Origin: Alphaproteobacteria bacterium
GTDB taxonomy: Bacteria; Pseudomonadota; Alphaproteobacteria; SMXQ01
Reading direction: 5' to 3'
DNA: 36,776 nt
Assembly (NCBI GenBank): GCA_027292975.1
Contig: JAPUGG010000136.1
Span: 1-36,776, forward strand
The notes under the pieces are model-generated. The model was not told the DNA's origin and did not search any database. It worked only from the letters and a program-made list of their open reading frames with translations. Shown here in pieces: positions 12,431 through 15,824 of the stretch. Within the stretch, counting starts at the first letter, position 1. Every line of letters begins with the position of its first letter. A program made the translations under genes and the position numbers.

Positions 12431-12928
12431 ATGCACCGCCACGCGGAAACCCGCAGCGTCCCCTATGCCCCTAAACAGATGTTCGACCTGGTCGCCGATA
12501 TCGGGCGCTACCCCGAATTCCTGCCCTGGTGCCTGGCCGCGCGGGTGACCGGCTTTGAGGACGGCGTGCTCCGGGCCGACGTGGTGGTGGGCAAGGGGTT
12601 GTTCCGGGAAACCTTCCATTCCAAGGTGACGCTTCATGAGGGCGGCACCGGGGCCGGCAATGGCGAGGGCGATGCGCCGCCCCGCATCGACGTCGAATAT
12701 ATCCGCGGCCCCATGCGCGAGATGGCCAACCACTGGGTGTTCCGCGCCGTTGATAGTGGCACCGAGATCGATTTCCTGGTGGAGTTCGATTTCCACTCCC
12801 GCCTGCTCGACGCGGTGATAGGCGCGGTCTTCGACCACGTGGTGACGCACATGGTGGACGCCTTCGAGGCGCGTGCCGATGTGCTCTATGGGGCGGGGTC
12901 CGCCCCGGATGGTCCACGCCGGCCCTAA
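12431..12928 (+). CDS. Coenzyme Q-binding protein / START-like RatA-Coq10 family
   Basis: MHRHAETRSVPYAPKQMFDLVADIGRYPEFLPWCLAARV and C-terminal FDHVVTHMVDAFEARADVLYG; usual position after lipA. Confidence 0.9.
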   Translation: MHRHAETRSVPYAPKQMFDLVADIGRYPEFLPWCLAARVTGFEDGVLRADVVVGKGLFRETFHSKVTLHEGGTGAGNGEGDAPPRIDVEYIRGPMREMANHWVFRAVDSGTEIDFLVEFDFHSRLLDAVIGAVFDHVVTHMVDAFEARADVLYGAGSAPDGPRRP

Positions 12929-13118
12929 AAATCCTAAGAATATTTTATGGTTGTCAGGAGTTCTTGATGAACTACTTCAAGATTTATGCTGCACTGCACC
13001 CATAACTAGCAAATTAAATATAGATACATCTATCAATCGGGGATACTGTTCGACACCCTAGAAGCGAATGCCATTCATTCGCAATCCATGACACGAAACC
13101 GGTGGAGAGGATGTTGCG

Positions 13119-14447
13119 ATGAAAGATGCCACGGGGAAGGTCGTTGCAAGGGGCGCTCAAAAGGGTTTGTGGCGAGCGGTCCTTCTGAGCGCCGTCATTC
13201 TGCTGGCGGCTGGTTGCACCGTGCCCGAGCACATGGAGGTCAGGGCCGGTGTCGATCCGCGCAACGTGGATGACGACGTCCGTTTCCGCACCACCTATTA
13301 TTTCCGGGTCTTCGACCTTTGTGAGTCTTTATCCGGCGACCGAAAAAAAGACAGGATCATTCCACAAACCGATTCGCTTTACCGTTTCCGCATGACCGGA
13401 AAAGCATTCGCGTTGTTCACCAACGTGCATTTCGAGGCCGGGACCCTCAAAAGTTACGAAATTGACCCCTTCGGCGCCAATGTCGTCTTCGACAAGAAAA
13501 GCAACCGCTTCCGTTTCAAATCGCGCCGCCAGACCGAGCAGGAGGCAGGGCGCGAGGACGCGCAGCAAGAACTCCAGCGTCTGATGACGATATATGAGAA
13601 GCAAAAGGATATTTTGCCCCAACCGATCGTCAACAAGATCTTGGATGCTATCGGGCTACAGCTTGATCTTCTGGCGGGAAAGACCCTGACAGGCCAGCCT
13701 CTATTGGTGCCTTACACGGCCGAAAATAAGCGCGGGGACATCAAAATTCTGGCCAAACAGTACAAGGATACGACCACGGCAGAGGACAAAAAGAATAAAA
13801 CCGACACCGTCAAACGGGCGCTGGCACAGTTGGAACAGGCGCTGGCACAGTTGGAAAAGGCCGTCCTATGGGAGGTCGCCGTGAAACGGGCGAGTAAGGG
13901 CGAAGACTCTGCACGAGGTGAGTGGGACGATCAGATTCGTCTACTTGGAGGACTAAGAGACGCCAATCCGATCAAGGGTCTGGCGCATGTAAAAACTCTT
14001 GTCAACAAAACGATAGGGCGATTGAAAGCCTCCAAGAGCACGAGCGCGACGGTGGACATGGCCGCACCACGCGCCATTGGCAACGGCGGCAGGGACCGAT
14101 CCCCGATTTGCGATTCCGGCCAAGCGGGGCGGCGCGGTTTCCAAATTCTTGGCCCCGAAGGTTGGCGAACCTTCGACCAGGACGAACGCCTGATCCTCGC
14201 CATGTCATCGAGCGGCGAGCCTCTGATCAGTACGCTTCGGGAGCTCTCGAGCCGGGTCCTTGCCGAACAGCCGGACCGGGCGGCGCTCCTATTGCCCCTG
14301 GTCAAAGAGCGCCTGCGCATTTCCCGGACGTTACGCACCATCGAAGGGCTGGAAAGCGACGCAGCCAAGAAAGCCGCGGCCGAGAAAAAAGAAGCGGCAA
14401 AGAAAGCGGCCCTCGACATCCTGAAGGTCTTCAAGGAGGAGAATTAG
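13119..14447 (+). CDS. Predicted lipoprotein of unknown function
   Basis: 442 aa ORF with signal sequence and lipobox (VLLSAVILLAAGC); central ALAQLEQALAQLEKA heptads; A/K/E-rich C-terminus. No family recognised. Confidence 0.8.
   Translation: MKDATGKVVARGAQKGLWRAVLLSAVILLAAGCTVPEHMEVRAGVDPRNVDDDVRFRTTYYFRVFDLCESLSGDRKKDRIIPQTDSLYRFRMTGKAFALFTNVHFEAGTLKSYEIDPFGANVVFDKKSNRFRFKSRRQTEQEAGREDAQQELQRLMTIYEKQKDILPQPIVNKILDAIGLQLDLLAGKTLTGQPLLVPYTAENKRGDIKILAKQYKDTTTAEDKKNKTDTVKRALAQLEQALAQLEKAVLWEVAVKRASKGEDSARGEWDDQIRLLGGLRDANPIKGLAHVKTLVNKTIGRLKASKSTSATVDMAAPRAIGNGGRDRSPICDSGQAGRRGFQILGPEGWRTFDQDERLILAMSSSGEPLISTLRELSSRVLAEQPDRAALLLPLVKERLRISRTLRTIEGLESDAAKKAAAEKKEAAKKAALDILKVFKEEN
13819..13860 (+). 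repeat. 21-bp tandem duplication inside the first lipoprotein gene
   Basis: GCGCTGGCACAGTTGGAACAG followed by GCGCTGGCACAGTTGGAAAAG; encodes ALAQLEQ ALAQLEK heptads. Confidence 0.85.
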
Positions 14448-14450
14448 GCC

Positions 14451-15788
14451 ATGGCGCGCGGCATCTTCCAATCCCTTCGTTCGGTGGCGGCGCCGCTTGG
14501 CGTTGCGCTGGCGCTGGCGGGCTGCGGCGGGGCGTTTTCGGTGTCGTCTTCGATGCGCGTGGAAGTCGAGGTCTACAAGGGTCCCCTGACGAAGGAACCC
14601 GAGGCCCAGTGGGCCGAACTGATCGGAATCGTCGATGAAGCGCGCGAAATGCTGAAGAAATACGAACTCGGCCTGCGGCAATTCGTGATGCCGACAAAGG
14701 ACTGCCGTGACGATCCGGATTTCGAAATCAGGACTGAAAAAACGTTTAATGAACTTTCATACATTCCAGATTTCGATTTATCGATAGCTAATTCCAGAGA
14801 CTGGACCAAAACGGCATGCCTACAATTGAACAACCTGTCGAGAGACGTGGCGGCCTTGATGGATATTTATAAGGAGATGGTGGCACTTACTCCCATAATA
14901 GGCGACACCTTAAAGAGTTACCATGCAGGTAACGGAAAGGAAAAAAGTGCTCTCCTGGTCGAACTCACGCGCGTCGCCACCACCCTGAAATCCAAGGCCC
15001 TTTTCTGGGCCAACGTCCATGCCGCCGTCGCGCCGGACTCGTTGCTGGCGCGAAACATGATGACCAACTTCGCCAATATGACGTCCCAGATCAGCAATCA
15101 GCTTTCCTCGCGGGCCGATGCGCTTCTCAAACAGTTGGCCCGCGGAATATCGCGCAAAAATCTCCCCCTGAGCGTCTATTTGCGCGACACCAGCATCACC
15201 GATTTTCCCAACCTTTTCGTCTGGAACCGCGCCGCCGCGCCGGCGCTGCTGTCGGAAATGTTCCTGCACCCCCTTCACGCATTCAGTTCCGAGGAGACGA
15301 CCGACCGCATCCGCGTCCTCGAACGCCTGTTCGCCGATCACTACTGGACCAATATCAACACGGTCTACGCCAGCGGTCAGGGCACCGTGCGCATGGCGCT
15401 GATCAAGGACGACATCGGTAACTGGAACCTCAAATCCTTCGACAGCAACCCGGCCAAGTTGCTCAACGCCTATAAGGAGTTGACCCTGGCGGCGGTGAAA
15501 GCCGTGACCGACGCCGCCACCGGTGGCGTGGACAAGGCGGCGTTGGACCTCGCCAGCCGCCTGACGCGCGGGCGAATCGGCACCGAAGGCGCCAAGGCCG
15601 GCACCTTCAATGTCGAGGCGCTGAGAAAACGCACAGTAGTAAAACTGGAGACGCTCGAGAAAAAGGCCAAGGATCCGAATGCTAATCGCGAAGAAATCCT
15701 CAAAGAAGCGCGGCGAATCGTCGAGGACTACGAGGCCGTGATCGACGTCTTGCAGGAATCGGTGGTGGCCGAAAGCCCGAAGCCCTGA
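14451..15788 (+). CDS. Predicted lipoprotein of unknown function
   Basis: 445 aa ORF with signal sequence and lipobox (LGVALALAGCGG); begins 3 nt after the previous stop; no family recognised. Confidence 0.8.
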   Translation: MARGIFQSLRSVAAPLGVALALAGCGGAFSVSSSMRVEVEVYKGPLTKEPEAQWAELIGIVDEAREMLKKYELGLRQFVMPTKDCRDDPDFEIRTEKTFNELSYIPDFDLSIANSRDWTKTACLQLNNLSRDVAALMDIYKEMVALTPIIGDTLKSYHAGNGKEKSALLVELTRVATTLKSKALFWANVHAAVAPDSLLARNMMTNFANMTSQISNQLSSRADALLKQLARGISRKNLPLSVYLRDTSITDFPNLFVWNRAAAPALLSEMFLHPLHAFSSEETTDRIRVLERLFADHYWTNINTVYASGQGTVRMALIKDDIGNWNLKSFDSNPAKLLNAYKELTLAAVKAVTDAATGGVDKAALDLASRLTRGRIGTEGAKAGTFNVEALRKRTVVKLETLEKKAKDPNANREEILKEARRIVEDYEAVIDVLQESVVAESPKP

Positions 15789-15824
15789 TCCACGCCGGAA
15801 GGCCGCCTTTAGCCGCCCCCCCCC

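Follow-up and report, generated by a model that had tools for sequence, protein, structure and literature searches.

Two adjacent genes for exported proteins, A and B, in a 36,776-nucleotide stretch of an alphaproteobacterial contig (JAPUGG010000136.1; hereafter the window) belong to a family that has no name in the curated databases searched. Judged from sequence comparison, the two proteins very probably act jointly, since the pair travels together in every genome found. With moderate confidence, we propose an accessory envelope module, spread by horizontal transfer, whose obligate core would be these two genes and in which A would serve as an anchor docking the helical protein B.

Two coupled genes encode exported proteins

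A sequence-only reading of the window had described two ORFs of 442 and 445 aa with a 3-nt gap, and coordinates, lengths and gap all proved exact (Table 1). It had also credited both products with a signal peptide and a lipobox; both indeed possess hydrophobic signal segments, with the lipobox LLAAGC33 in A and LALAGC25 in B. The pair is flanked by a COQ10/SRPBCC-like gene (12431-12928) and by a convergent alcohol dehydrogenase gene (adh). Shine-Dalgarno-like candidates for ribosome binding precede both A (GGAGAGG) and B (AGGAGG). The leader upstream of A probably holds the promoter of the cassette; no consensus site was found in it, and the search returned no sigma-70-like promoter on the + strand. 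Terminators did not exceed chance expectation.

Separate profile searches detected one copy each of A and B in the window genome. On comparative evidence both are real genes, since homologues in many genera keep both frames and dN/dS, calculated between the congeneric species of L035 and L036, is 0.13 in A and 0.31 in B. These ratios show that, as far as codon comparison can tell, both genes are under purifying selection.

Table 1. Positions of the cassette and its parts in the window
Feature	Coordinates	Strand	Description
Gene A	13119..14447	+	442-aa predicted lipoprotein, lipobox Cys33
Gene B	14451..15788	+	Exported protein of 445 aa, mainly helical, with lipobox Cys25
AT-rich leader of cassette, upstream of A	12926..13118	+	G+C 0.40
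Segment missing from the corresponding site in G003, a genome of the same genus	12898..15821		COQ10-like gene and adh adjacent in G003

A and B occur as a pair of fixed order

A scan of GTDB species genomes for B identified 14 loci, in Alphaproteobacteria, Gammaproteobacteria, two Nitrospinota bins and one bin titled Deltaproteobacteria that is assigned to Myxococcota; further loci came from profile searches. A lay directly 5′ of B at all 24 loci where both could be read, often with a 4-nt overlap and otherwise nearly touching. At L013 the start of the contig cuts A, the C-terminus of which is still visible before B, and in genome G289 the pair is split over two contig ends (L086, L032). A second, divergent pair, likewise in the order A-B, is present in each of the L011 and L012 genomes. 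When the N-core of A and the core of B (both described below) were searched with separate profiles, these matched the identical five of 385 alphaproteobacterial genomes (G000, G011, G066, G289 and G342). A was detected in 21 of the 22 B carriers, the exception being the L013 genome with its cut contig. Co-occurrence across genomes, proposed as a check when only the sequence had been read, was thus without exception in the sample.

The pairs fall into two subfamilies. In subfamily I, which includes the window, A has 229-663 aa and B 431-1246 aa, and in subfamily II (L003, L021, L033, L086/L032, L087, L088) A has about 215-290 aa and B about 1,240-1,520 aa. Common to both are the A cores (YYxxxxD ... 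YR ... GPEG ... RL) and the B elements V-x-V-Y-x-G-P ... D-x-G-N-W-x-x-K. The invariant columns of the two proteins appear to point to no catalytic site.

At L013, which lies in a Silicimonas bin, genes resembling a type I restriction-modification system follow directly 3′ of the pair (L013:2482-9473), the first of them matching type I restriction enzyme models of PADLOC and Pfam.

Distribution and mobility of the pair

The pair is carried by about 1% of genomes (5/385 in Alphaproteobacteria, the class of the window). None of 10 other sampled genomes of the window's family carries it; among other families, it was found in 4 of 18 genomes of one and in 1 of 140 in the family of Thalassomonas. 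In the same-genus genome G003, whose flanks align with the window at 85-89% identity, the COQ10-like gene adjoins adh and leaves no room for A-B. The G+C content of A and B is 0.57-0.58, versus 0.63-0.69 for most neighbours. The simplest reading is that the pair was inserted in the window genome, loss in G003 being less likely because the pair is absent from the rest of the sampled family. The initial placing of the pair among housekeeping genes therefore needs revision: the neighbourhood is housekeeping, but the pair is best read as a recent insert there, given the empty site in G003 and the low G+C.

The 10-nt sequence TCCACGCCGG occurs as a direct repeat on both sides of the cassette, at 12913 and 15789; it suggests a recombination scar but is within chance. 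We did not accept it as a transposition scar, an equally long repeat having been found in 8/300 random window pairs. Genome G006, of the same family, has another ORF of 262 aa at the COQ10-adh junction (L049:2546-3334). Since this ORF differs from A and B, the junction may be a hot spot of insertion.

Well-supported groups common to the A and B trees were L008 with L009, L035 with L036, L003 with L033, and Kordiimonas with three Gammaproteobacteria. The last four also have in common the gene order hydrolase-A-B. As Kordiimonas is an alphaproteobacterium, this group indicates transfer. On the grounds of patchy distribution, absence from the family, low G+C and the empty site in a same-genus genome, we conclude that the pair is an accessory, horizontally moved two-gene cassette.

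A cassette so clearly mobile on the evolutionary scale might consist of two unrelated lipoproteins merely hitch-hiking on a mobile element. We strongly disfavour this explanation and regard it as very improbable: co-occurrence is exact and the order fixed in both subfamilies, in several phyla and amid neighbourhoods that have nothing else in common, and the cassette carries no mobility gene. Being compact, patchy and horizontally moved, as defence modules are, the pair could also protect the cell at its surface, against phages or through superinfection exclusion, and the L013 pair does lie beside a type I restriction enzyme. However, PADLOC models match A and B only as coiled-coil noise, that enzyme is the one clear defence gene among the neighbours of 24 loci, the others being mixed and mostly housekeeping, and no relatives of B were found in the viral contigs or plasmids searched. 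A defence role thus seems improbable, if less so than hitch-hiking.

Constant and variable parts of A and B

Conservation in A is concentrated in an N-core (residues 34-136; DVRFRTTYYFRVFD ... LYRFRMTGKA ... FEAGTLKSYEIDPFGA) and a C-core (residues 336-408; RRGFQILGPEGWRTFDQDERLILAM), between which lies a variable helical insert that is mostly missing from the minimal A of subfamily II. The AlphaFold2 model, of low confidence, predicts a beta domain (strands 54-134 and 339-363) split by the helical insert, and a helical C-terminus. The impression from the sequence that both proteins are helical and coiled-coil fits B, while A is mixed beta/helical in this low-confidence model. A lipobox is present in nearly all relatives of A, as shown by a lipobox survey. 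Within the gene, a 21-nt tandem duplication with one mismatch (window 13813-13854) repeats an ALAQLEQ-type heptad, a helical repeat inside the variable insert.

B is marked by an N-terminal motif, SMRVEVEVYKGPLTKEP, and by a conserved core (residues 168-345) that ends in YWTNINTVYASGQGTVRMALIKDDIGNWNLKSFDSNP. Its length ranges more than threefold across relatives, from 431 to about 1,520 aa, with the N-terminal YKGPL motif and the KDDIGNW core retained throughout. In most lineages the survey found a lipobox in B, which is then a predicted lipoprotein; B of at least five relatives (L010, L014, L017, L018 and L019) has an ordinary signal peptide only. In the Nitrospina relative L021, B is broken into three ORFs (L021:5715-8792). 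Likeness to Calx-beta proteins is confined to this locus, where the last fragment contains three Calx-beta repeats (E 3e-33); the domain was not seen in the window's B or in the other B proteins scanned.

Searches for known families and folds

Neither A nor B reached any curated family in Pfam, NCBIfam, PADLOC or PHROGs. Scanning 20 A and 21 B sequences singly against Pfam reached no curated family either, envelope families included, with the exception of Calx-beta in L021. Below-threshold matches in NCBIfam, PADLOC and PHROGs were chance, weak or coiled-coil; those of Gammaproteobacterial B to SMC, JetC and LmuB were discarded as coiled-coil compositional. A sequence search of the PDB with profiles returned nothing significant (best E-value 0.27). 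The AlphaFold2 models have a mean pLDDT of 60.5 for A and 62.6 for B, and Foldseek with these low-confidence models gave 0 matches at E<=0.001; its matches to GPCRs and helical bundles were rejected as noise. The string IKDDIGNW was not found in published literature. Four libraries, PDB profiles and Foldseek with low-confidence models, all without a confident match, thus bear out the initial view that neither protein could be assigned to a known family.

A and B might still be divergent members of a known lipoprotein complex, for secretion, efflux or outer-membrane assembly, with a similarity too remote for sequence profiles to detect. In A, a lipobox followed by a split beta domain gives a generic resemblance to small envelope lipoproteins, and the AlphaFold models are too poor to rule out a known fold. 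Still, 0/20 A and 0/21 B match a Pfam envelope family, the PDB profile and Foldseek searches gave no match at the levels above (the latter with low-confidence models), and recurrent secretion or transport genes were not found near the loci. We consider this explanation unlikely.

A serine hydrolase adjoins some pairs

Across all loci, the only recurrent neighbour family linking unrelated genomes besides A and B was an alpha/beta (serine) hydrolase. It adjoins the pair in 6 of 22 carriers, on either side: upstream at L017, L018, L019 and L020, where it has hydrophobic segments and a length of about 450-480 aa, and downstream at L008 (272 aa) and L021 (305 aa). All copies keep the motifs YxGD, HSLG (the nucleophile elbow) and a C-terminal H-x-x-YW; an HGxG oxyanion motif is also found. 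An N-terminal export signal is not evident. HGxG, the HSLG elbow and the C-terminal His motif are features of PGAP1, DUF676 and LCAT-like hydrolases, and there is weak Pfam similarity to LCAT, PGAP1, DUF676 and DDHD, but it falls below the curated cut-offs of all four, and the gene accompanies only the 6 carriers.

The hydrolase was found in 1 of 372 genomes of the window's class versus 6 of 22 carriers, a contrast biased by a profile built from pair-adjacent copies. That it adjoins the pair in different phyla, now upstream and now downstream, can hardly be coincidence. Carrier hydrolases all adjoin the pair, save one extra copy in Kordiimonas; this second hydrolase (L089:3784-4602) is unlinked, of the IHGMGD type, and resembles the short form beside the L008 and L021 pairs. 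By profile search, the hydrolase is absent from 16/22 carriers, the window genome included, and is therefore not essential to the pair.

These observations bear on a possible role in lipid or ester remodelling, in which a PGAP1/DUF676-like hydrolase would process a substrate (a lipid, a lipoprotein or a secreted molecule) that A and B bind or present to it, with an unlinked hydrolase taking over where the pair has none beside it. This reading fits the position of the same rare family, which precedes the pair in Gammaproteobacteria and Kordiimonas and follows it in L008 and L021, and also the weak similarity of the hydrolase to LCAT, PGAP1, DUF676 and DDHD. Yet 16 carriers lack such a gene, and an enzyme with no evident export signal may fail to encounter A and B in the periplasm. 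As a general account of the pair, we judge remodelling doubtful.

A model for the A-B module

Our preferred explanation remains an accessory envelope module with A and B as its obligate core. The early suggestion of a co-expressed pair, possibly an envelope complex, gains support from unbroken co-occurrence and from the absence of a confident family or fold match, and we propose that A and B would form a physical complex. In this complex, A would be the membrane anchor on the periplasmic side, in keeping with its nearly universal lipobox. Its beta domain, formed by the two cores with the helical insert as a dispensable interruption, may dock the helical B, a step drawn from low-confidence models (mean pLDDT as above). 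B would act as a periplasmic helical scaffold, held via A where it has only a cleavable signal, as in at least five lineages. The YKGPL motif and KDDIGNW core of B probably contact A or the envelope. Since B varies so widely in length while these two elements stay fixed, its helices could provide an adjustable spacer, the middle and C-terminal parts lengthening the protein. In some lineages the serine hydrolase may work with the pair, and where linked it suggests that the task in the envelope may concern lipids or esters.

The pair resembles operon-encoded envelope lipoprotein complexes in export, lipoboxes, coupled genes, helical and beta domains and obligate co-occurrence. Unlike those complexes, it includes a component, B, that need not be lipidated and that varies more than threefold in length, and the searches linked it to none of the named members by sequence or fold. 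More tentatively, and with clearly less confidence than for the module itself, A and B could constitute an envelope machine that has not been named before and performs a task unlike any described so far. Its two widely transferred components would be a beta-domain lipoprotein serving as anchor and an exported helical partner of variable length, in some cases joined by a hydrolase of their own.

Taken together, the pair represents a conserved, selected and mobile envelope module, present in at least two bacterial phyla and without a name in curated resources. The constant elements and variable length of B, the near-universal lipobox of A and the optional hydrolase provide handles on its role, and cultured carriers (Thalassomonas, Pseudoalteromonas rubra, Kiloniella spongiae and Aestuariibacter) make the question testable.
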